39,454 nt of DNA, from assembly GCA_002279795.1 (NCBI GenBank), contig NCCT01000046.1, forward strand, positions 1 to 39,454, in the 5' to 3' direction. Origin of the DNA: Hydrogenophilales bacterium 12-61-10 (GTDB taxonomy: Bacteria; Pseudomonadota; Gammaproteobacteria; Burkholderiales; Thiobacillaceae). Positions 9,738-27,386 of the stretch are shown piece after piece (the first letter of the stretch is position 1; each line of letters opens with the position of its first letter). A model generated the notes under the pieces. It saw only the letters and a program-made list of their open reading frames with translations, was not told the DNA's origin and ran no database searches. The translations under genes were made by a program, and so were the position numbers.

Positions 9738-11732
9738 ATGACGATAGACATGAGCCAGTTTTACCAGGTGTTCTTCGACGAGGCAGATGAACTGCTCGCC
9801 GAAATGGAAAAACTGTTGCTGGATATCGATGTGTCGGCGCCGGACAGCGAAGACCTCAATGCGATTTTTCGTGCCGCACATTCCATCAAGGGCGGCGCGG
9901 CCACCTTCGGCTTCAACGACATTACCGAAGTGACCCACACGCTGGAGTCGCTGCTCGACCGCATTCGCAAAGGCGAGATGGCGCTGACGCCCGAGCATGT
10001 CGATGCGTTTCTGGTGTCGAAAGACGTGCTGACCATGCTCATGGGCGGCCACCATCACGGCACGGCGGTCGATCAGGCCGCGGTTTCCAGCGTCAGCGCG
10101 CAACTCGCCGTGCTGTCGCAAGGCACGGCTGCCGCTGCTCCGGCCGCAGCGCCCGCACCGCCCGCACCGGCTGGCGCACCTGCGGCTTGCGCAGCGCCCG
10201 TGGCGGATGCCGACGGCAATTTCTGCTTTCGCATCGAACTTCCCGATGTGCCACAACGCGACGTCGACGCGCTGGCGACCGAACTGGGCCTGTTGGGCGA
10301 AATCGCGCGCGAGGTCATGGCGGACAAGCGGGTGGCGTTTACCTTGATCACCGGCGAAAGCCAGGACGATATCGTCGCGATCTGCTCGTTCGTGCTCGAC
10401 CCGGACGACCTCAAAATTACCTTCGGATCCATCGGTGAACCATCGCCCGCCCAGGCGCCCGCCACGACCGAAGCCGAGCCTGCCGCTGCGCCAGTGACAG
10501 CACCGGCTGCCCCGGTCGCACCGCCCTCAGAGGCCCGCAACCCGGGGCGTCGCGCCACCGACAAGGAAGCCGGCTCGCAGGAATCTTCCTCGATCCGGGT
10601 GGGCGTTGAAAAAGTCGATCAATTGATCAATCTGGTCGGCGAGCTGGTGATCACCCAGGCGATGATCGAGCAGCGCATCATGGCGCTCGACCCGCTGGTC
10701 CACGAGCGCCTGCTCAACAGCGCCAATCAGCTGGCGCGCAATACGCGCGACCTGCAGGAAGCGGTGATGTCGATCCGCATGATGCCGATGGACTACGTGT
10801 TCTCGCGCTTCCCGCGCATGGTGCGCGACCTGGCAACCAAGCTCGGCAAAAAGGTCGAGATCATCACGCGCGGCGCCGCTACCGAGCTCGACAAGGGCCT
10901 GATCGAACGCATCGTCGATCCGCTGACCCACCTGGTGCGCAACAGCGTGGACCATGGCATCGAAATGCCCGAGAAGCGGCGCACCGTTGGCAAGAGCGAA
11001 ACCGGCAAGCTCATCCTGTCCGCCGCGCATCAGGGCGGCAATATCGTGATCGAAGTGACCGACGACGGCGGCGGTCTGAGCCGCGAGCGGATACTTGCCA
11101 AGGCCCTGCAGCAGGGCTTGAACGTATCGGAAACCATGCCCGACATCGACGTCTGGCAACTGATCTTTGCCCCGGGGTTTTCGACGGCGGAAGTCGTCAC
11201 CGACGTATCGGGACGCGGCGTCGGCATGGACGTGGTCAAGCGCAATATTTCGGCGATGGGCGGCACCGTGGAAATCCGCTCGACGCCGGGTTCCGGCAGC
11301 ACGATTTCGATTTCCCTGCCGCTGACGCTGGCGATCCTCGACGGCATGTCGGTCAAGGTCGGCGAGGAGGTCTACATCCTGCCGCTGGGCTACGTCGTCG
11401 AATCGCTGCAACCCGAGGCGATCGACGTCAAGGAAATTGCCGGCCAGGGCAAGGTGGTCAAGGTGCGCGAAGAGTATCTGCCGCTGATCCTGCTGTTTGA
11501 GCTGTTCGATATCGAGCCGCTGCATGCCCATCCGGCGCAGGGCATCATCGTCATCCTCGAAGCCGACGGCAAGAAGGCCGCCTTGCTGGTCGACGGCCTG
11601 GTCGGCCAGCAGCAGGTCGTGGTCAAGAACCTGGAATCCAATTTCCGCAAAGTGCCGGGCATCTCGGGCGCCACCATCCTCGGCGACGGCGGCGTGTCGC
11701 TGATTCTCGATGTCTCCGCACTACTGCGCTAA
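9738..11732 (+). CDS. cheA: Chemotaxis histidine kinase CheA
   Basis: CheA autophosphorylates in response to receptor state and passes phosphate to CheY and CheB. In this 664-residue protein: P1 Hpt domain with AAHSIKGGA (phospho-acceptor His48); a Pro/Ala-rich linker at about residues 130-155; a P2-like docking domain (about 156-230); a second Pro/Ala linker; P3 dimerisation from about residue 285; the P4 kinase with N box HLVRNSVDHGIE, G1 box DDGGG and G2 box SGRGVGMD; and a C-terminal CheW-like P5 domain. All key residues are present. An ACGGAG Shine-Dalgarno precedes the ATG. It heads the che operon, 57 bases before cheW. Confidence 0.98.
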   Translation: MTIDMSQFYQVFFDEADELLAEMEKLLLDIDVSAPDSEDLNAIFRAAHSIKGGAATFGFNDITEVTHTLESLLDRIRKGEMALTPEHVDAFLVSKDVLTMLMGGHHHGTAVDQAAVSSVSAQLAVLSQGTAAAAPAAAPAPPAPAGAPAACAAPVADADGNFCFRIELPDVPQRDVDALATELGLLGEIAREVMADKRVAFTLITGESQDDIVAICSFVLDPDDLKITFGSIGEPSPAQAPATTEAEPAAAPVTAPAAPVAPPSEARNPGRRATDKEAGSQESSSIRVGVEKVDQLINLVGELVITQAMIEQRIMALDPLVHERLLNSANQLARNTRDLQEAVMSIRMMPMDYVFSRFPRMVRDLATKLGKKVEIITRGAATELDKGLIERIVDPLTHLVRNSVDHGIEMPEKRRTVGKSETGKLILSAAHQGGNIVIEVTDDGGGLSRERILAKALQQGLNVSETMPDIDVWQLIFAPGFSTAEVVTDVSGRGVGMDVVKRNISAMGGTVEIRSTPGSGSTISISLPLTLAILDGMSVKVGEEVYILPLGYVVESLQPEAIDVKEIAGQGKVVKVREEYLPLILLFELFDIEPLHAHPAQGIIVILEADGKKAALLVDGLVGQQQVVVKNLESNFRKVPGISGATILGDGGVSLILDVSALLR

Positions 11733-11789
11733 GGACGCTGCAGGCGCCCGCTTACCCGACACGATATAGATCAAACAAGGATCGACCCC

Positions 11790-12293
11790 ATGAGCTACAC
11801 CACGCAAACCCAGACCAGCCTGCATACGTCCGAAAAGGGCGGGGCGGACGAGTTTCTCGCCTTCACCCTCGGCGGCGAGGAGTACGGCATCAATATTCTG
11901 CGCGTACAGGAGATTCGCGGTTACGAACCGGTTACCCGGATCGCCAACGCACCCGCGTTCATCAAGGGCGTGGTCAACCTGCGCGGCACCATCGTGCCGA
12001 TCGTGGACATGCGCATCAAGCTGGGCCTCGGCTCGCCCACCTACGACGCGCTTACCGTCGTGATCATCCTCAACCTCGCCGGACGGGTCGTCGGCATGGT
12101 GGTCGACAGCGTTTCCGATGTCACCACGCTGACGGCCGAGCAGCTCAAGCCGGCGCCTGATATCAGCACCTCGTTCGACAGCGATTTTCTGATCGGCCTC
12201 GGCACGCTGGGCGACCGCATGCTGATTCTGGTCGATATCGACAAGCTGATGTCCAGTTCCGACATGGGCCTGTTCGATCCTTCAGCGTCATGA
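11790..12293 (+). CDS. cheW: Chemotaxis coupling protein CheW
   Basis: CheW couples receptor signalling tips to CheA in the chemoreceptor array. The 167-residue protein shows the CheW fold: [20 protein letters not shown] near residues 28-47, [18 protein letters not shown] at about 61-78 (the most conserved CheW motif), and [15 protein letters not shown] sits 9 bases before the ATG. Position right after cheA and before the receptor genes fits. No anomaly seen. Confidence 0.98.
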
Positions 12294-12345
12294 GCTGCAT
12301 TCATGCGCTGCGATTCAAACCTTCCACTCATCAAGAGAGCGAATC

Positions 12346-14058
12346 ATGCTAACTAATCTGAGTATCAAATCCCGACTGGTCTTCGTGATCGGATTTTTGT
12401 CGCTGCTGCTGGTAGGAATAGGGATCATGGGTCTGGTCAGCCTGGGTGCCACCAACACCGCGATGAAATCCGTGTACGAAGGGCGCGTCGTGCCTTTGGG
12501 CGAACTGGAGCAGATGACCATGCTGTTCAGCGAAAACCAGATTAGCGTCGCGGAATCCATCACCGGCCAGTTGTCCACCTTCCCAGAAGAAGTCTCGGTG
12601 GTCGATAAAAGCGTGGTTGAGTCCAGAAAACGGATGGAAAAAATCGCCGCCATCTGGAAAACCATTGTTGAAACTCAGACCTCCGACGAAGAAAAGAAGT
12701 GGGTGAAGGAAGCCGATGCCGCCCGGCTGGCGTACGGCAGGGATGGTTTGCTCCCGGCACTCGCCGCTCTTGGCGCACACGATTTTCAGCAGGCGAGCGA
12801 GATTTTTCAGGGTCCCATGAAAGAAACCTATCCGCGACTGCGGACGGCCCTCGATGCGCTGACCAAAGTTCAGTTGGCCATCGCCAAGCGCGAGTTTAAA
12901 GCCGCGGAATCGCGCTTTCTCACGGTCAGGATCATTTCCGTCGGGGTAATCGTGCTCGGTGTGATGCTGGCTGGCGTGATCGGCTTCTGGCTAATTCGTG
13001 CGATCTCCCGTCCGCTGAATGAAGCCGTCCGCGTTGCCGAGAGCGTGGCTGCCGGCGACTTGACCCAGACGATCGATGTCCGCAGCAACGATGAGACGGG
13101 CCGTCTGATGCAGGCCATGCAGGCCATGAACACCAGCCTGTCGCAGATCATCGGACAAGTCCGCACCGGCACCGAGACCATCTCGGTTGCATCGCGCCAG
13201 ATTGCATCGGGCAATGCCGATTTGTCCTCGCGCACCGAACAGCAGGCGAGCTCGCTGGAAGAAACGGCCTCGTCGATGGAAGAGCTGACGAGCACCGTCA
13301 AGCAGAATGCCGAGAACGCGCGCCAGGCCAATCAGCTGGTTCAGTCCACTTCCGAAGTGGCGGTCAAGGGCGGCCAGGTGGTCGGCCAGGTGGTCGAAAC
13401 CATGGCTTCGATCAAGGACAGTTCGCGCAAGATTGCCGACATCATCGGCGTCATCGACAGCATCGCGTTCCAGACCAATATTCTGGCCTTGAATGCGGCG
13501 GTGGAGGCAGCGCGGGCGGGCGAACAGGGCCGGGGCTTTGCGGTGGTAGCGAGCGAAGTGCGCAACCTGGCACAACGCAGCGCCGGTGCAGCCAAAGAAA
13601 TCAAATCCCTGATCGAAGACTCGGTCGGACAGGTTGATGCGGGCGGCAAGCTGGTTGAGGAAGCGGGCAAGACAATGGGTGAAATCGTCACCTCGGTCAA
13701 ACGCGTCACCGACATCATGGGCGAGATCGCTGCGGCGAGTTCGGAGCAGAGCGCCGGCATCGAGCAGGTCAACCAGGCCATCACCCAGATGGACGACGTC
13801 ACCCAGCAGAACGCAGCGCTGGTGGAACAGGCGGCTGCTGCGGCGATGAGTCTGCAGGAGCAGGCCCACAAGCTGTCGGAAGCCGTGAGCGTGTTCAAGC
13901 TGGACGGCGGTGGATACAGCCAGCGTGCGGTGACACCGGTATTGAATGACAGGGCTACGGCCTTGCCGAACAAATCCAGGGGCGCAACGCCCGCCACGTT
14001 CTCGAAGAAGCTTGCTGTCGCGAGTGGTAGCAACAGCGATGAGTGGGAAGAGTTTTGA
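12346..14058 (+). CDS. Methyl-accepting chemotaxis protein, four-helix sensor type
   Basis: A 570-residue transmembrane chemoreceptor. Seen in order: TM1 at about residues 10-31; a periplasmic helical sensor domain of about 160 residues (Tar/4HB-like); TM2 at about 190-212; a HAMP domain (SRPLNEAVRVAESVAAGDLTQ); methylation helices; and the hairpin tip [20 protein letters not shown]. The C-terminus ends in DEWEEF, a variant of the NWETF pentapeptide that tethers CheR/CheB. The ligand cannot be told from sequence. It is the first of three receptor genes between cheW and cheR. Its cytoplasmic half is almost the same as that of the next gene while the sensor halves differ, suggesting duplication followed by sensor exchange or gene conversion. 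Confidence 0.94.
   Translation: MLTNLSIKSRLVFVIGFLSLLLVGIGIMGLVSLGATNTAMKSVYEGRVVPLGELEQMTMLFSENQISVAESITGQLSTFPEEVSVVDKSVVESRKRMEKIAAIWKTIVETQTSDEEKKWVKEADAARLAYGRDGLLPALAALGAHDFQQASEIFQGPMKETYPRLRTALDALTKVQLAIAKREFKAAESRFLTVRIISVGVIVLGVMLAGVIGFWLIRAISRPLNEAVRVAESVAAGDLTQTIDVRSNDETGRLMQAMQAMNTSLSQIIGQVRTGTETISVASRQIASGNADLSSRTEQQASSLEETASSMEELTSTVKQNAENARQANQLVQSTSEVAVKGGQVVGQVVETMASIKDSSRKIADIIGVIDSIAFQTNILALNAAVEAARAGEQGRGFAVVASEVRNLAQRSAGAAKEIKSLIEDSVGQVDAGGKLVEEAGKTMGEIVTSVKRVTDIMGEIAAASSEQSAGIEQVNQAITQMDDVTQQNAALVEQAAAAAMSLQEQAHKLSEAVSVFKLDGGGYSQRAVTPVLNDRATALPNKSRGATPATFSKKLAVASGSNSDEWEEF
13171..13863 (+). repeat. Direct repeat copy 1 (MCP signalling domain)
   Basis: This stretch, coding for the signalling domain of the first MCP, aligns by eye without gaps to 14972-15664 in the next gene (constant offset 1801) with roughly 90% identity and several long identical runs. 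Such a pair is a potential site for homologous recombination or gene conversion. Confidence 0.8.
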
Positions 14059-14179
14059 AATAAATCCTGGCGTTGCGTCCGGCTTGCACCCGGAAAAGTC
14101 GGTCTGTGCCGCCGGAGGAGTCGGGTGAACTCTTCAGCAGCAACAGTCGTTGAAATGAACTTTAGAAAGTATTGAAAAC

Positions 14180-15859
14180 ATGAAACTCAAGTCAAAAATC
14201 ATACTGAGCATGGGGATGGTGTTCGTGCTTTTCGGCGTTGCCATTGCGGTCGCGCTAACCGGCATGCAGAGCAACAAGCATCGCTTCGAGCGTTTCCTTG
14301 AACAGGATCTGGCACTCGCCCAAGCGGCAACCAACCTCTACGCCCACGGGTTGCAAATGGGCCAGGCCCTGCGCAACATCGTCATGGATCCAGCGAACCA
14401 GGCGGCTTACAAAAATCTGGAGGTCTCATCGGCTGAGTTCAAGACAAACAGCGAGAAGGCTCTGGCGCTTGCCGCAACCACCCCTGACGACCTGAAGATT
14501 CTGCAGGAAGTGGTGGCCTTGCGCGAGCAGCAAGCGCCCATTCAGGCAAAAATCGTTTCCCTTGCAAGCACCGATCAGGTTGCTGCCATTGCGGCGATCA
14601 GCCAGGAAGAAACGCCGGTGTGGCGCAATATCCGCACGCGCCTGATGGACTTCACTGCAGCCAAGCAAGCTGCGGTTGAGCAAACCAAAGCTGAAATGGA
14701 AGCGTTTAGCCAGCGCATGCTGATGCTGGCATTGGTCCTGGTGGTTGTCGCGCTGGTCGTGGCAAGTGCCATCGTTTTCTGGCTGGTACGCCACATCATG
14801 AAGCAGCTGGGTGGCGAGCCTGCCTACGCAGTGGAGGTTGCCCGTGCGATTTCAGAGGGCGATTTCTCCAGCTCGGTTGAACTCGAAAACGGCGATACGT
14901 CGAGCCTGCTGCATGCCATCAATGCAATGCGTCAGAACCTGATCGGGACGATCGGCGATATCCGGCATGCAACCGAGACCATCTCGGTTGCCACGCGCGA
15001 GATCGCTTCCGGCAACGCCGACCTGTCGTCGCGCACCGAGCAGCAGGCAAGTTCGCTGGAAGAAACCGCAAGTTCGATGGAAGAGCTGACCAGTACCGTC
15101 AAGCAGAATGCCGAGAACGCGCGCCAGGCCAACCAGATGGTGGTTTCCACCGCCGACGTCGCGGTCAAGGGCGGCCAGGTGGTCGGCCAGGTGGTCGACA
15201 CCATGGCCTCGATCAAGGACAGCTCGCGCAAGATCGCCGACATCATTGGCGTCATCGACGGCATCGCCTTCCAGACCAACATTCTGGCCTTGAACGCGGC
15301 AGTGGAAGCGGCGCGTGCCGGCGAGCAGGGCCGTGGCTTTGCCGTGGTGGCGAGTGAAGTGCGCAATCTGGCACAACGCAGCGCCGGTGCAGCCAAGGAA
15401 ATCAAGTCCCTGATCGAAGATTCGGTGGGCAAGGTCGACGCTGGCGGCAAGCTGGTCGATGAAGCCGGCAAGACCATGAGCGAGATCGTCACCTCGGTCA
15501 AGCGCGTCACCGACATCATGGGCGAGATCGCGGCTGCGAGTCAGGAGCAGAGTGCCGGCATCGAGCAGGTCAACCAGGCCATCACCCAGATGGACGACGT
15601 CACCCAGCAGAACGCAGCGCTGGTCGAGCAGGCGGCAGCTGCGGCTGAGAGCCTGGAGGAACAGGCCAATGCACTTGCCCAGGCCGTGAGTGTTTTCAAG
15701 CTGGACAGCATGGGCTACAGCCAGCTGGCTGAACGGCCGTTAGAGATGAACAGAACCCGTTCGGTGTCGAAGAACCGGCTTGCAATGCCCGCTCCGGCGG
15801 CACGATCAAACAAGCTGGCCGCCGCTCACAGCAGCGATGGCGAGTGGGAAACGTTTTAA
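14180..15859 (+). CDS. Methyl-accepting chemotaxis protein with CheR-binding tail
   Basis: A 559-residue transmembrane chemoreceptor. TM1 is at about residues 8-29; the periplasmic helical sensor of about 145 residues includes [20 protein letters not shown], a stretch seen in 4HB_MCP-type sensors; TM2 is at about 178-202; HAMP follows with [20 protein letters not shown]. The signalling tip is identical to that of the preceding MCP. The last residues GEWETF are nearly the enteric NWETF CheR/CheB tether. The ATG at 14180 has only a weak AGAAAG-like ribosome site. The 121-base gap before it holds no clear promoter. Ligand unknown. Confidence 0.94.
14972..15664 (+). repeat. Direct repeat copy 2 (MCP signalling domain)
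   Basis: Second copy of the repeat at 13171-13863, see there. The third receptor gene at 15898-17508 has a clearly more diverged version of the same domain. Confidence 0.8.
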
Positions 15860-15897
15860 TACCCAATTGAGTTTGAGTCATTCATCAAGGACTATCC

Positions 15898-17508
15898 ATG
15901 CGATCCAATTTGCCCGTGACCAATGTTGAATACGTGCTGAACGATGATGAAACCATCGTCTCGAAGACCGATGTGCACGGCAACATCACCTACGTTAACC
16001 AGGCTTTCGTCGATGTCAGCGGATTCACTGAAGATGAGCTGGCCGAGGCGTTCGCCGACTTCTGGCACAGCCTGAAGAGCGGCAAGGCGTGGACCGGAAT
16101 GGTTAAAAACCGCTGCAAAAACGGTGATCATTATTGGGTTGAGGCCAATGCCGCGCCCATCATCGAGAACCGCCAGGTGGTCGGGTACAGTTCCATCCGG
16201 ATGAAACCTGGCCGGGCACAAATCCAGGCTGCGGATAGCGCTTACCGGGCCATCAAAGCAGGCGATACAAGATTCAAGATCCAGGATGGTCAGGCAGTGC
16301 GGCAGACCTGGTTACAGCGTACCGGCTTGGTGAAAGCCTATTCCATCAAGACGCTGTTGGTATTGGCGGTAAGCGCCATGGCTGCGTTGTTTGGAGCGAT
16401 CGGCGTGTTGGCCTGGCTAGCTACAGGCAGCGAGGGAACGTTCTACCTGAACAGCCTGATGGTGATTGCTGCCTTGGGTGTACCGATGGCGGGCGCATTT
16501 GGGTTGCTGTCATACCGCAGTGTGGTTTTGCCTTTGCAAAATGCCGGGCACGACATTGGGCGCATGAGTGCAGGTGACCTGACGGGGCGGATTTCAGCCA
16601 GTGGCGCGGCCGAGATTGCCTCGTTAATGCAAGCCTTGCGCGTGTTGCAAAACAATACCAAGTTGCTGGTGGGGCAGATCAAGGAAAGCACTCACAGTGT
16701 GAACCTGGGCGCGCAGGAAATCGCCAGGGGAAATGCGGACCTGTCCCGGCGCACCGAGTCGCAGGCCTCCAGCCTGGAAGAGACGGCCAGCTCGATGGAA
16801 GAACTGACCAGCACCGTGAAAGAAAATGCTGACAATTCCCACATGGCCAGCAAACTGGTGGCTTCGACCGCTGATATCGCCGTGCAGGGCGGCGAGGTGG
16901 TCGGCAAGGTGATCGAAACCATGGCCTCGATCAACAGCAGCTCGCGCAAGATCGCCGACATCATCGGCGTGATCGACGGTATTGCGTTTCAGACCAACAT
17001 CCTGGCCTTGAACGCTGCGGTCGAAGCCGCGCGTGCGGGCGAGCAGGGCCGTGGCTTCGCGGTGGTGGCGGCGGAAGTTCGCCATCTGGCGCAACGCAGC
17101 GCAAGTGCTGCAAAGGAAATCAAGACCCTGATCGTGGATTCGGTCTCTCAGGTCGAGTTGGGCAGGAAGCTGGTCAACGAAGCGGGTGAAGCAATTGATG
17201 ATGTGGTGACGTCGGTGCAATTGGTCGTGGAGATCATGGCTGGAAGTGCGGCAGCCAGCCTGGAGCAGAGTGCGGGCATCGCCCAAATCAACCAGGCAGT
17301 GAGCCAGATGGATGAAATGACCCAGCAGAATGCTGCGCTGGTGGAAGAGTCCGCCGCCGCAGCCGAGAGTCTGCAGAATCAGGCCACCCAGCTTGCGCAT
17401 TTGGTTGACACGTTCAAGCTGGTGCGCGAGGTGAGTGGAACCTCTCATGCCGTGAAGCCTGCGCAGGGCGGTCGAGCCGGAATGCCGGTTCCCCGACTGG
17501 CTGCGTAA
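15898..17508 (+). CDS. Aer-like PAS chemoreceptor with shortened PAS domain
   Basis: A 536-residue receptor with the Aer layout: a cytoplasmic N-terminal PAS domain (residues about 10-110, with [20 protein letters not shown] and [17 protein letters not shown]), a membrane hairpin at about 150-210, HAMP, and an MCP signalling domain with tip [20 protein letters not shown]. Enteric Aer senses redox state through FAD bound in PAS. Here, after SGFTEDEL (residue 48), the chain goes directly to AEAFADFW; compared with E. coli Aer from memory, about 14 residues containing the HNMVRHPDMP motif are absent without loss of frame. FAD binding is therefore doubtful. No WxxF-type tether is present at the C-terminus (ends VPRLAA). 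AAGGA precedes the ATG. The receptor family is sure; the signal is not. Confidence 0.9.
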
Positions 17509-17555
17509 TCCTTGCTCCATGCTGAGTTGTGAGAGCGAGGGCGGTTAGCCTGAAC

Positions 17556-18425
17556 ATGACATCCATTTTGAAAACTACGCCGGACAGCAGCAAGATTTTT
17601 TCCTTCACGCCACGCGATTTTGCCAGGGTGCGTGCGCTGATCTACCGTCAGGCCGGCATTTCACTGGCTGAAAGCAAGCAGGAAATGGTCTATAGCCGGT
17701 TGGCGCGTCGCCTGCGGGCCAAGGGACTGGACTCGTTCGAGGTCTATCTCGATGGCCTCGAAAGCGGACGCGATAGCGAGGAGTGGGAGGCCTTCACCAA
17801 TGCGCTGACGACCAATCTGACCTCGTTTTTTCGTGAAGCGCATCATTTCCCGATTCTGGCCGAGCATGCGCTCAAGGTGAAAAAACCGCTGACGATCTGG
17901 TGTTCCGCCAGCTCAACCGGCGAGGAGCCGTATTCGATCGCGATGACGCTGTGTGAAGCCTTCAATACGCTGACGCCACCGGTTAGTATCGTGGCGACAG
18001 ACATTGATACCAACGTGCTTGAGGCCGGCGCGACCGGGGTCTATGCCGCCGACCGGCTTGAGAAAATGTCGAGTGATCGGGTTCGGCGCTTTTTCCTGAA
18101 GGGGAAAGGCAGCCGCGCCGGAATGGTTCGGGTTCGACCCGAGTTGCGCCAGTTGATCACCTTCAAAACCCTGAACCTGCTGGCCAGCAACTGGCCGGTG
18201 AATGGCCAGTTCGATGTGATTTTTTGCCGCAATGTGATGATTTATTTCGACAAACCGACACAAAGCAAAATACTGTCCCGATTTGTGCCGCTGATGAAGC
18301 CGGACGGTTTGCTGTTTGCCGGCCACTCTGAAAATTTCATGTATGTGACCGATGCGCTGAAGCTGCGTGGCAAGACGGTTTATGAACTGGATCAGCGTGC
18401 GGCGCGTGCAGGGAATAGTTCGTGA
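17556..18425 (+). CDS. cheR: Chemotaxis protein methyltransferase CheR
   Basis: CheR methylates receptor glutamates using S-adenosylmethionine. The 289-residue product has the N-terminal helical domain (FARVRALIYRQAGISL), the TTNLTSFFRE segment, the SAM-binding motif WCSASSTGEEPYSIAM at about residues 114-129, ATDID, FDVIFCRNVMIYFD and GLLFAGHSE. Two starts are possible: ATG 17556 (chosen; normal length near 286, though GAGGG is 14 bases away) or GTG 17529, nine residues longer. The stop overlaps the cheD start by 4 bases, so the two are translationally coupled. The WExF tails on two upstream MCPs are plausible docking sites. Confidence 0.95.
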   Translation: MTSILKTTPDSSKIFSFTPRDFARVRALIYRQAGISLAESKQEMVYSRLARRLRAKGLDSFEVYLDGLESGRDSEEWEAFTNALTTNLTSFFREAHHFPILAEHALKVKKPLTIWCSASSTGEEPYSIAMTLCEAFNTLTPPVSIVATDIDTNVLEAGATGVYAADRLEKMSSDRVRRFFLKGKGSRAGMVRVRPELRQLITFKTLNLLASNWPVNGQFDVIFCRNVMIYFDKPTQSKILSRFVPLMKPDGLLFAGHSENFMYVTDALKLRGKTVYELDQRAARAGNSS

Positions 18426-19027
18426 ACCCGGCGATAGCAGAGCATCTGGCGACCAACCTGTATTACGACCGTGTCTTCGACTGCCAGGCAGCCAAGATAT
18501 TGCCGGGCGAGTATTACTTCACCATCAAGCCGATGCTGATCGTGACGGTGCTGGGCTCATGTGTTGCCGCCTGTATTCGCGACCGGGTGTCAGGAATCGG
18601 CGGGATGAATCATTTCATGCTGCCGGATGGCGGCGAGTCGGGCCGTGCGTCTGCATCGTCGATGCGCTATGGCAGCTACGCAATGGAGGTGTTGATCAAT
18701 CAAGTCCTCAAGGCCGGCGCGCGGCGCGAGAACCTCGAAGCCAAGGTGTTCGGCGGGGGCAATGTGCTGCAGGGGTTTACCAGCATCAACGTCGGCGAAC
18801 GTAACGCCCGATTCGTGCGTGACTATTTGCGGGACGTGAACATCCGCATCCTGGCCGAGGACCTGAACGACATTCACCCGCGCAAGGTGTATTTCTTTCC
18901 GGAAACCGGCAAGGTCCTGGTCAAGAAGTTGATCCAGCTGAATAACTACACCCTGGTCCGGCGTGAGCATGACTATGCAAGCCGGCTCCAGGCCAACCCC
19001 ATCGATGTCGAGCTCGATTTGAATTGA
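18422..19027 (+). CDS. cheD: Chemoreceptor glutamine deamidase CheD
   Basis: CheD deamidates specific receptor glutamines to glutamates. The 201-residue protein has the catalytic pair seen in the family: Cys47 in LGSCVAA and His64 in GMNHFMLP, followed by GNVLQGF and the KVYFFPETGKVLVKKL segment. It starts with GTG at 18422 inside the cheR stop (GTGA overlap). It is longer than the 160-residue minimal CheD because of extensions at both ends, which is usual in Proteobacteria. CheB follows after a 249-base gap filled by a G tract and an inverted repeat. Confidence 0.95.
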   Translation: MNPAIAEHLATNLYYDRVFDCQAAKILPGEYYFTIKPMLIVTVLGSCVAACIRDRVSGIGGMNHFMLPDGGESGRASASSMRYGSYAMEVLINQVLKAGARRENLEAKVFGGGNVLQGFTSINVGERNARFVRDYLRDVNIRILAEDLNDIHPRKVYFFPETGKVLVKKLIQLNNYTLVRREHDYASRLQANPIDVELDLN

Positions 19028-19060
19028 AGCGGGATGGCCCGGTAGGGCGGGTGAGGAGCC

Positions 19061-19070
19061 GGGGGGGGGG
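19061..19070 (+). repeat. Run of ten G
   Basis: A G10 homopolymer 33 bases after cheD. It lies outside any gene. It could be a slippage-prone tract or a sequencing weak point; nothing links it to a function. Confidence 0.9.
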
Positions 19071-19095
19071 CGGCAGTATAGGGCTTGCATAGACG

Positions 19096-19169
19096 CGTAC
19101 CGCGTGGGCTTTGCCCACCCTACGCCACGCCGTCGAAACGCGTAGGGTGGGCAAAGCCCACGCGGTACG
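19096..19169 (+). repeat. 30-bp perfect inverted repeat between cheD and cheB
   Basis: Arms at 19096-19125 and 19140-19169 are perfect reverse complements over 30 bases, with a 14-base loop. Each arm contains its own short dyad TGGGCTTTGCCCA, so the element is a nested palindrome. The core GTAGGGTGGGCAAAGCCCAC resembles an interspersed REP-like repeat that I recall from many proteobacterial genomes. A 12-base palindrome (AGGGTGCACCCT, 19200-19211) follows. It may end or attenuate the cheA-cheD transcript or may be an inserted repetitive element; it has no T run. Confidence 0.85.
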
Positions 19170-19276
19170 AATGCATCAATGATGCGGCATCGAGAATGTA
19201 GGGTGCACCCTGAAAGGCATCAAGGTACAGCCCTCGCGACAGGTTGAACAAGCGTGAAATCCGGAGAGAATTTGGC

Positions 19277-20446
19277 ATGAAAATCAAGGTTCTGATTGTG
19301 GATGACTCGGCGCTGATCCGCGGCGTGATGACGGAAATCATCAACAGCCAGCCCGACATGATCGTGGTCGGTGCGGCGCCCGATCCGCTGGTGGCGCGCG
19401 ATCTCATCAAGCAAACCAACCCGGACGTGCTTACGCTGGATGTCGAAATGCCGAAAATGGACGGTCTGGATTTTCTCGACCGCCTGATGCGCTTGCGGCC
19501 GATGCCGGTGGTGATGGTGTCGTCGCTGACCGAGCGCGGCTCGGACATCACGATGCGCGCGCTGGAACTGGGCGCGGTTGATTTCGTGACCAAGCCGAAA
19601 ATGTCCATCCATAGCGGCATGCTCGAATACACCGAACTGATCACCGACAAAATCCGCATTGCCGCACGGGCAAAAATCAAGGCGCGTGCGCTGCCGAATG
19701 CGCAAGGCGCGACGGCACTGGCCGCGGTGCGCAACCCCTTCATCAGCAGCGAAAAGCTGATCATCATCGGGGCTTCCACGGGCGGCACCGAGGCGATCAA
19801 GGATTTTCTGGTGCAGCTGCCGTCCGACTGTCCCGGCATCCTGATCACCCAGCATATGCCCGCAGGCTTTACCCGTTCGTTCGCCGATCGCCTCGACAAG
19901 CTGTGCAAGATTTCGGTCAAGGAGTCTGAAGGCAACGAGCGGGTGCTGCCCGGTCATGCCTACCTGGCACCGGGCCATTCGCACCTGACGCTGGTGCGCA
20001 GCGGCGCCAACTACATGACCAGAATCGACCAGGGCGAGCCGGTCAACCGGCACCGCCCCTCGGTCGATGTGCTGTTTCGCTCGGCTGCGGCCAACGCTGG
20101 CAAGAACGCGGTGGGGGTGATCCTCACCGGCATGGGCAAGGACGGCGCAGCCGGCATGCTTGAAATGAAAAATGCCGGCGCCTACAACCTGGCGCAAGAC
20201 GAAGCGACCTGCGTTGTGTTTGGCATGCCGCAGGAAGCGATCGCCATGGGCGGCACCCATGAAGTCGCCGGGACGGGTCATGAACTTTTTCGCCTCACAA
20301 GGAAACCGCGCAATGCGGGTATAAGATCCCAGCAGCTTTTTCGCTGGCATTGCGGCTTAAGTTTGACGCCTGCATGCCGTTTAACCCCCCACTTGACCAA
20401 AGCTTCATGGAGCCCTGTATGGCTGATCCGAATACCAAATTTCTAG
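19277..20446 (+). CDS. cheB: Chemotaxis methylesterase CheB with apparent 3' frameshift
   Basis: CheB removes receptor methyl groups when phosphorylated by CheA. Seen: receiver domain with Asp10 and phospho-acceptor Asp55 ([12 protein letters not shown]), linker, and methylesterase domain with the catalytic Ser in [10 protein letters not shown], His in [10 protein letters not shown] and Asp in [10 protein letters not shown]. All catalytic residues are intact. After AMGGTHEVA (about base 20269) the protein becomes unlike CheB and the frame runs to 20446, overlapping cheY by 28 bases. The +1 frame reads [18 protein letters not shown] and stops at 20324, a far more plausible end. A small loss of bases (not a multiple of three) near 20267-20272 is inferred. 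The start ATG 19277 (GGAGAG upstream) is preferred over an upstream in-frame codon at 19244. Confidence 0.88.
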
Positions 20447-20817
20447 TCGTTGACGACTTTTCCACCATGCGCCGCATCGTTCGCAATCTGCTCAAGGAGC
20501 TGGGATATGCCAACGTCGAAGAAGCAGAAGACGGCGTGGATGGGCTGGCCAAATTGAGGGCAGGCAACTTCGACTTTGTTGTGTCGGACTGGAACATGCC
20601 CAACATGGATGGCCTGACCATGCTGCAGACTATCCGTGCCGATCCCGCCCTGTCGAAATTGCCGGTATTGATGGTGACGGCCGAGGCCAAGAAGGAAAAC
20701 ATCATTGCAGCGGCTCAGGCTGGTGCAAACGGTTATGTCGTCAAGCCTTTTACCGCTGCCACTCTGGACGAAAAACTCAGCAAGATTTTTGAAAAACTTG
20801 AAAAAGCTGGAGGTTGA
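20419..20817 (+). CDS. cheY: Chemotaxis response regulator CheY
   Basis: Single receiver-domain protein (132 residues) that, when phosphorylated, binds FliM/FliN at the switch. All active-site residues are at the enteric positions: Asp12, Asp13, phospho-acceptor Asp57 ([12 protein letters not shown]), Thr87 (MVTAEA) and Lys109 (VVKPF). The ATG at 20419 has GGAG upstream and gives the normal N-terminus. cheZ starts one base after its stop. Confidence 0.98.
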
Positions 20818-20818
20818 C

Positions 20819-21493
20819 GTGAGTACGCAATTTCCAGACGCCAGTGCGCAGATCACACCTACTGCCGCTGTAAAACCTGACGTGTGCGAGCAGGGAGAAA
20901 TGCTGGTGCGGGTGGGACAGATGACCCGTGGATTGCACGATAGCTTGCGTGAGCTGGGCTTGGACAAGGTGCTGGAAAAAGCATCGGTGGATATGCCCGA
21001 TGTGCGTGACCGTCTGAATTACGTGGCGCGCATGACCGAGCAGGCCGCACAACGCGTATTGAACGCTACGGATGCCGCCATCCCTTTGCAGGAGCGGATT
21101 GATGCGGGTGCAAGTGAGGTTCTGAAAGGCTGGAAGAACACGTTCAATGCGCCTTTTTCCGAGGCCGGGTATCGCGACATGGCCACCTCGACCATGCAGT
21201 GCCTGGTTGATATGCAACACGACAGCAATGCCACCAAGCAGCAGTTGCTGGACATCATGATGGCGCAGGATTTTCAGGATCTGACGGGTCAGGTAATCCG
21301 CAAAGTCACGGATCTTGCACACAATCTCGAAAGCCAGCTGGTGCAGTTTTTGATCGATTACGCCCCGTCTGAAGTGAAGCGCGAAACCGATAACAGCTTG
21401 CTCAACGGCCCGCAAATCAGTCCGGAAGGCAGAAGTGACGTGGTGGCCGATCAGGGCCAGGTCGACGATTTGCTGGACAGCCTGGGGTTCTGA
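20819..21493 (+). CDS. cheZ: CheY-phosphate phosphatase CheZ
   Basis: CheZ speeds dephosphorylation of CheY-P. The product starts at GTG 20819, supported by GGAGG 5 bases upstream and by the cheY stop just before it (224 residues). It has the long helical hairpin with catalytic motif DFQDLTGQVI (Asp154, Gln158, equivalent to Asp143/Gln147 of E. coli by my count) and ends in QVDDLLDSLGF, the C-terminal CheY-binding peptide. It is the last gene of the plus-strand che block and converges on fliR with a 140-base gap that contains no strong terminator by eye. Confidence 0.97.
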   Translation: MSTQFPDASAQITPTAAVKPDVCEQGEMLVRVGQMTRGLHDSLRELGLDKVLEKASVDMPDVRDRLNYVARMTEQAAQRVLNATDAAIPLQERIDAGASEVLKGWKNTFNAPFSEAGYRDMATSTMQCLVDMQHDSNATKQQLLDIMMAQDFQDLTGQVIRKVTDLAHNLESQLVQFLIDYAPSEVKRETDNSLLNGPQISPEGRSDVVADQGQVDDLLDSLGF

Positions 21494-26108: not shown

Positions 26109-27386
26109 TCAGGCGAAGGTGTCGACGAGACCGCGACCGGCGTGACGGGTGGGCAGGGGCAGGCTCTGGATCGTCGATTCGTCCACGTTGCCTGCGCCCG
26201 GATAGGCCGGTCCGATGCGCCGCGCCTCACGGTTGGCTTCGTTCTGCTGCTGTTGCTGCTGTTCTGCGCTTACGGTCGCCTGCCCCAGCTGGATGCCGGC
26301 CTCGTTCATCATTTCGCGGAGTTTGGGCAGAGCGGCTTCGAGTGCCTGCCGGACTTCGGGCTGGGCGGCAAAGAAGCTGGCGGTGGCTTGGTCGTTGGTG
26401 ACGTTGAGCACGACCTGCAGGGGACCGAGGTTCGGCGGGTTGAGCGTCAGCGAGGCGGTCTGCAGTGCGCCCGCCGTCATCCAGACGATCTTTTCACCCA
26501 GCGCCTGGTTCCAGGCGGTGCTGCCGACCGAAGGCGCAAGCGCATTGTTCGCTGCGCTGGTTTGCGCCGTCAGCGCGTTTAGCTGCGCGTGCTGGCTGGT
26601 CGTTGGCATGAGGGGATTGCCGACACCGTCGGGACGGCCTTCATCGGGCTTCAGTGCATCCGGCGACAGCGCGGCTGCGATCTGTCCCGGCAGGGCTGCG
26701 GCGGCGGCTGTGGCCTGTGCCGAGTTGGCGGTCATGGCCGCCTGAAAATCGGCCTTGAGGGGCTGTCGTGCTGTTTGCGCGTCGGCTGCTGCATCGCGCA
26801 ACGAATCGGTCGGTGCGGCGGCCAGCGGGTTGCCCTGGGGGGCGGATGTGGCGGGCCCGGAAAGCGGCGTGGGCAAACCCGTTGCGGACGCCAGCAGCGG
26901 CGCATCGCTCGCCGGGACGCTGCTGGCAGGTGGCATCAGCAGGGCGGGTGCCGCCGCCATCGCCAGCATGGCGTCGGGCAGCGCGGCGAGGGTTGCGGCG
27001 TCGGGCTGAGCCACCGGCTGCTGCTTATTGGTTTCAGCGGCCGCAGCTTGTTGCGGGTCGCTTGCGGCGGCATTTTGCGTGGCAGCCGAGTCGGACGGGA
27101 CGGATGCGGAACCGGATTCGGCGGCTTGCCTCGCATCGCTTTGGGCCTCGCTGCGCCTGGTTTCGTTTCGGACCTCGCTGCGGCGGGCATCGCTTGCGGC
27201 ATCGCTGCGCCGGCCTTCATTGCGTTGGGCCTCATTGCGTTCGGATTGGCCGGATTCTTTCTGCGCAATTTCGTTCGACAACACGCGGCTGAACGCGCTG
27301 TCATCGACGGCCGGGCCGGGCTGCTTCTTGCCGCTCGGCTGTGCCTGCAGGGCGGCCATCGGATTGAGGTTGGCGGAAGGGGTCAT
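26109..27386 (-). CDS. fliK: Flagellar hook-length control protein FliK
   Basis: FliK measures hook length and switches export specificity by acting on FlhB. The chosen ATG at 27386 (GAGG 6 bases upstream) gives 425 residues starting MTPSANLNPMAAL. The N-terminal ruler half is Ala/Gln/Ser-rich and holds a charged degenerate repeat (SERNEAQRNEGRRSD, ARRSEVRNETRRSEAQ, residues about 40-80). The C-terminal Flg_hook domain (about 315-390) includes LTLNPPNLGPLQVVLNV and EALPKLREMM-like sequence, then a run of six Gln. An upstream GTG frame (27551) overlaps fliJ and is rejected. A second FliK-like gene exists at 35495-36544. Confidence 0.93.
   Translation of the reverse strand: MTPSANLNPMAALQAQPSGKKQPGPAVDDSAFSRVLSNEIAQKESGQSERNEAQRNEGRRSDAASDARRSEVRNETRRSEAQSDARQAAESGSASVPSDSAATQNAAASDPQQAAAAETNKQQPVAQPDAATLAALPDAMLAMAAAPALLMPPASSVPASDAPLLASATGLPTPLSGPATSAPQGNPLAAAPTDSLRDAAADAQTARQPLKADFQAAMTANSAQATAAAAALPGQIAAALSPDALKPDEGRPDGVGNPLMPTTSQHAQLNALTAQTSAANNALAPSVGSTAWNQALGEKIVWMTAGALQTASLTLNPPNLGPLQVVLNVTNDQATASFFAAQPEVRQALEAALPKLREMMNEAGIQLGQATVSAEQQQQQQNEANREARRIGPAYPGAGNVDESTIQSLPLPTRHAGRGLVDTFA

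Follow-up and report, generated by a model that had tools for sequence, protein, structure and literature searches.

The region considered here is referred to as the window and covers the opening 39,454 bases of a contig 51,374 bases long, from a genome of 3.02 Mb that is spread over 160 contigs, 99.56% complete and 5.02% contaminated. It contains a chemotaxis operon, of which the gene for an Aer-type receptor is the subject of this report, together with flagellar genes that, on a reading of their translations, seem to have open frames. Table 1 collects the features that bear on the receptor; G032, used there and below as the main point of comparison, is the sister genome with the nearest orthologue.

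Table 1. Features of the receptor gene and its operon (operon gene names come in part from reading the translations).
Feature	Position	Strand	Basis or remark
Chemotaxis operon cheA-cheW-mcp-mcp-aer-cheR-cheD-cheB-cheY-cheZ	9738..21493	+	ORFs, tblastn orthologues
Aer-type receptor gene, 536 aa	15898..17508	+	ORF and translation
First half of PAS, residues 17-48	15946..16041	+	Protein identical to G032
Deletion junction, 42 bases absent versus relatives	16041..16042	+	Microhomology of 1 base
Second half of PAS, residues 49-103	16042..16206	+	One amino-acid difference versus G032
HAMP domain, residues 206-253	16513..16656	+	Pfam, slightly under cut-off
MCP signalling domain	16855..17322	+	Pfam
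cheB, frameshifting 17-base deletion near 20266	19271..20446	+	Comparison with relatives

The receptor consists of a short PAS domain, a hydrophobic stretch (recognised from the sequence by eye), a HAMP domain and an MCP signalling domain, and its reading frame continues uninterrupted past the junction and across the latter two domains to residue 536. Pfam assigns 39.4 bits to PAS_3, against 59.9 in the G032 orthologue, 24.8 bits to HAMP, for which the cut-off is 25, and 164.7 bits to MCPsignal. The best PDB sequence matches are to E. coli Aer (PAS domain, 8DIK; full-length protein, 31CJ and 31CK), which has the same order of PAS, hydrophobic stretch, HAMP and signalling domain. Thus, of the features that define an Aer protein, the receptor has the PAS homology (phmmer E of 2.1e-28 to 31cj_A and 2.9e-27 to 8dik_A), as well as the HAMP and signalling domains after a hydrophobic stretch, and lacks the FAD-binding segment with R57, H58 and D60. 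As judged from its sequence, this is an otherwise ordinary Aer-family energy-taxis receptor gene of the genus Thiobacillus. Four MCP signalling matches in the genome exceed the cut-off, and there is one fragment besides. A second full-length Aer was sought with the G032 PAS as query and rejected, the window gene being its only match in this genome at E <= 1e-20 among the matches listed; the short PAS itself has one further match here, a 695-aa ORF (E 5.4e-12) read as a PAS and GGDEF protein.

Codon 48 of the receptor (Leu) ends at base 16041 and AEAFADFW follows directly, where the G032 orthologue, at the same operon position, has LGAPQNIVRHPDMP. Exactly 42 bases, or 14 residues, are missing by this comparison, and the remaining PAS aligns with G032 free of gaps; against the E. 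coli Aer chains in the PDB the sole gap is likewise one of 14 residues, at the junction. The initial annotation had described a clean in-frame loss of 42 bases after base 16041, between flanks that align well, and both descriptions are borne out, the first to the base. The missing residues correspond to positions 49-62 of E. coli Aer and include R57, H58 and D60, whereas the equivalents of N34, in the first half of the domain, and of F66, W70, W79, N85 and R115, in the second, are retained.

As to how the bases were lost, slippage between direct repeats is unsupported, with no such repeat at the junction and a microhomology of only 1 base. No second close copy of the 20-base string across the junction occurs in the genome, and the DNA pattern of the short junction found no match in viral contigs, a result of little weight. 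Three silent changes separate the window from G032 in the 20 bases that lead up to the junction (16021-16041), against one in the preceding ~100. A patch of other sequence at the junction was considered and set aside, as no donor was found in the genome and the clustering of differences may be due to chance.

The significance of the lost segment derives from work on E. coli Aer. Arg57, His58 and Asp60 are described as needed for FAD binding (PMC2628428, citing Repik et al. 2000), so that the earlier statement that the loss takes the FAD-linked residues agrees with this source. In the crystal structure, H53 is stacked against the flavin ring, and R57, which lies on the E-F coil, forms a salt bridge with the FAD phosphate (PMC9668731). 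The same source proposes flavin-free PAS as a possible source of the kinase-on state, and AerD60N is described as unable to bind FAD and biased to clockwise rotation (PMC13059710). When 48 PAS domains are aligned with that of G032 at the head, the G032 numbering coincides with that of E. coli Aer (N34, R57, H58, P59, D60, F66, W70, W79, N85 and R115 all fall at the same positions), and the columns of G50, N54, R57, H58, P59, D60, M61 and P62 are at least 90% conserved. Position 57 is Arg in each of the 118 distinct relatives that carry the motif. Position 53 is more variable, with His in 68 of these relatives, Gln in 48 and Tyr in 2; the flavin-stacking H53 of E. coli Aer is therefore replaced by Gln in 48/118, G032 included.

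A short PAS could be the normal form of a subfamily of Aer, in which case close homologues should share it, and such homologues were looked for in several sets of sequences. Among 156 ORFs, eight scored at or below 100 bits over the whole sequence and were removed; 125 distinct ORFs scored above this value and matched across the junction, and 118 of them have the motif; the seven without it comprise the window copy plus six others, from Methylophilus-type loci, that are built differently. In the genus (56 genomes), 14 extra residues are present in 37 of the 38 strong single matches that span the junction, all but the window itself, and in 16/16 strong split matches; these counts omit weak matches, with E above about 1e-16, taken as other PAS proteins. 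At the level of the order (399 genomes), the window alone shows a deficit of 14 among the 150 matches listed, two others having a deficit of 4 and the rest differing by at most 2 either way. The class (369 genomes) gives 12-16 extra residues in 114 of the 115 junction-spanning matches listed, again with the window as exception, in a count that leaves out 14 matches to the second half alone. The genus, order and class sets overlap in part. Five sister genomes (G032, G019, G018, G025 and G067) have an orthologue in the corresponding operon, beside the same neighbours as in the window, and all five orthologues possess the 14 residues that the window receptor lacks; their identity over matched residues goes from 95% (G032) to 78%, with 76% for G067 when gaps are counted by tblastn. 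With five full-length orthologues, no second short copy among the matches counted at any of these levels and no support found in the genomes searched, a normal short-PAS subfamily is rejected on the genus, order and class comparisons, and we regard its chances as negligible.

At E <= 1e-20, 34 of the 56 genus genomes match this PAS and 22 do not, several of the latter being incomplete. From these sequence matches, aer seems to be often lost or absent within the genus, and loss of this sense is therefore plausible in it.

The effect of the deletion on the domain was approached with AlphaFold models built on the same 48 sequences. The PAS of G032 gives a model with a pLDDT of 90.9 and a pTM of 0.83, in which helix F occupies residues 63-74 and which Foldseek places 0.8 A from 8dik_A. 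For the window PAS these values are 77.3 and 0.66, with a distance of 3.2 A; the beta-sheet is retained, helix F is reduced to residues 53-57, and the core is least confident at residues 51-60 (block mean 59). The alignment behind this second model is biased to the long form because it consists otherwise of full-length relatives. The window model is consistent with a degraded PAS from which one wall is missing; unfolding is not proven by it. The proposal that the receptor might use another ligand finds no support so far, as no rebuilt pocket was found and the other flavin-contacting residues are unchanged in this degraded domain.

The PAS of the window differs from that of G032 by 15 synonymous changes and 1 non-synonymous change (dN/dS 0.015); neutral expectation is that ~79% of changes would be non-synonymous, against the 1/16 observed (P 9e-10), and among the changes assigned to the window branch the proportion is 1/8 (P 1e-4). 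Over the whole gene, non-synonymous and synonymous changes number 13 to 46 on the window branch and 5 to 28 on the G032 branch (Fisher p 0.59); the two branches are indistinguishable, and long-standing relaxed selection on the PAS is not seen. By these substitution counts, constraint has acted on the domain during most of the period after the window and G032 diverged. A PAS so nearly unchanged implies, therefore, either a recent loss, or a short domain that is still constrained, or living cells in which there is no deletion, and the selection data fit the three equally well.

The second of these readings is that of a working short PAS, with the receptor retained either as a partner that biases the kinase without ligand or as the sensor of a signal other than FAD redox. 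The open frame, the dN/dS of 0.015, the beta-sheet kept in the model and the retained operon position are what such a protein would display, and recent loss accounts for the low dN/dS just as well. Moreover, the short form is not common to any relative in the genomes searched, the remaining PAS has one amino-acid difference and no compensating changes, and its core is of low confidence at residues 51-60; we consider this reading improbable.

The third reading, namely that the deletion is absent from the cells, has to be weighed with the rest of the operon. Alignments with G032 of at least 600 bits reveal four window deletions of at least 10 bases: the 42 bases in aer, 17 in cheB, 10 near 26903 and 11 near 27067, the last two in an ORF read as fliK. 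The deletion in cheB is found against all relatives compared, has 2 bases shared at its junction, and causes the last ~24 conserved residues to be lost or replaced, the shifted frame continuing over the start of cheY. The catalytic-domain match of this CheB ends at 164 of 174, and the other CheB matches listed for the genus reach 172-174, apart from a pair of fragments in a single incomplete genome. The remaining split-frame cases are, by our own reading, antisense or ORFs without an assignable name, and a general frameshift load was set aside with cheB as the sole nameable gene among them. In addition, the second MCP gene (14180-15859) follows the second MCP of G032 for ~840 bases, is then mixed, and ends like the third MCP of G032, with its EWETF tail; the window has two MCP genes before aer, G032 three and G019 two. 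This mosaic suggests either a fusion by recombination with loss of one receptor or the collapse of repeats in assembly, and, taken with the cheB deletion, either a chemotaxis system that is losing function or local trouble with the assembly.

An artefact of assembly or consensus would mean that aer is full length in the cells and that the 42 bases were lost in a fragmented, probably metagenomic assembly. The 160 contigs and 5.02% contamination are in keeping with such an error, as are the second deletion, in cheB, within the same 12-kb operon, the mosaic MCP gene, which is of the type expected from the collapse of near-identical repeats, and the fully constrained appearance of the rest of the PAS. 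However, neither junction has a direct repeat (1 base is shared in aer, 2 in cheB), and a k-mer assembler has therefore no reason to jump there; nor does the unique 20-base junction string, or the confinement of split frames in nameable genes to cheB, point to a faulty consensus. An artefact is thus unlikely, though with a chance that deserves to be taken seriously.

The same operon context bears on a more specific proposal, in which a "blind" Aer has been selected, its flavin site deleted and the receptor serving the array as a kinase-biasing member that needs no ligand, beside a re-ended CheB. If this were true, the lineage would drive its flagella with a fixed, unsensed redox input; we give the proposal only a very slim chance.

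The explanation that we hold to be probable is a recent in-frame loss of 42 bases, confined to this lineage among the genomes searched, which removed the cofactor site and left a redox-blind, probably kinase-biased allele. The deletion is known from one assembly, and the case for it is built on sequence. The loss would be recent, and it may belong to a wider loosening of chemotaxis in which the end of cheB was also frameshifted. Mechanistically, the deletion would take one wall of the flavin site, made up of the last part of helix E, the E-F coil and the first part of helix F. Because the HAMP and signalling domains are kept, the receptor probably continues to be produced, inserted and coupled to CheA and CheW, and a role as a constitutive coupling partner, suggested at the outset, is possible. 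From sequence and model, its PAS is probably unable to hold FAD, and without FAD it would be unable to track respiratory-chain redox. Loss of redox sensing, which the initial annotation had raised, is accordingly the likely outcome in the light of the PAS models and of the FAD-binding literature (PMC2628428, PMC9668731, PMC13059710). Against this explanation, weak flavin binding could persist, since the remaining flavin contacts are retained. By analogy with the FAD-less D60N of E. coli, and hence on the strength of E. coli work, the receptor would be expected to favour the kinase-on (clockwise) state, and a weakened CheB would add a push in the same direction.

Among known systems, E. coli Aer differs from the window receptor in having positions 49-62, and its His53 differs from the Gln53 frequent among relatives of the window gene. 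The effect expected in the window receptor, by analogy, is that of D60N, with no FAD, no sensing of redox and a clockwise bias (PMC13059710); D60N is a laboratory point mutant, whereas the window receptor has a natural loss of 14 residues. MmoS (3EWK) and NifL (2GJ3) contain flavin PAS domains that share the PAS fold and came up as matches by sequence and by fold, but these proteins are not chemoreceptors and, in the sequence alignments, both have residues at the window gap. In the titles and abstract openings of the open-licence literature, we found no report of a natural Aer devoid of the FAD segment.

If the deletion is real, the window receptor would be a natural counterpart of the FAD-less Aer mutants, produced by one deletion with the rest of the PAS almost unchanged. 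With its G032 orthologue, to which it is 95% identical over matched residues, it would form a natural pair with which to address the default signal of a flavin-less Aer. It also carries a warning, as annotation would still name the protein an aerotaxis receptor.
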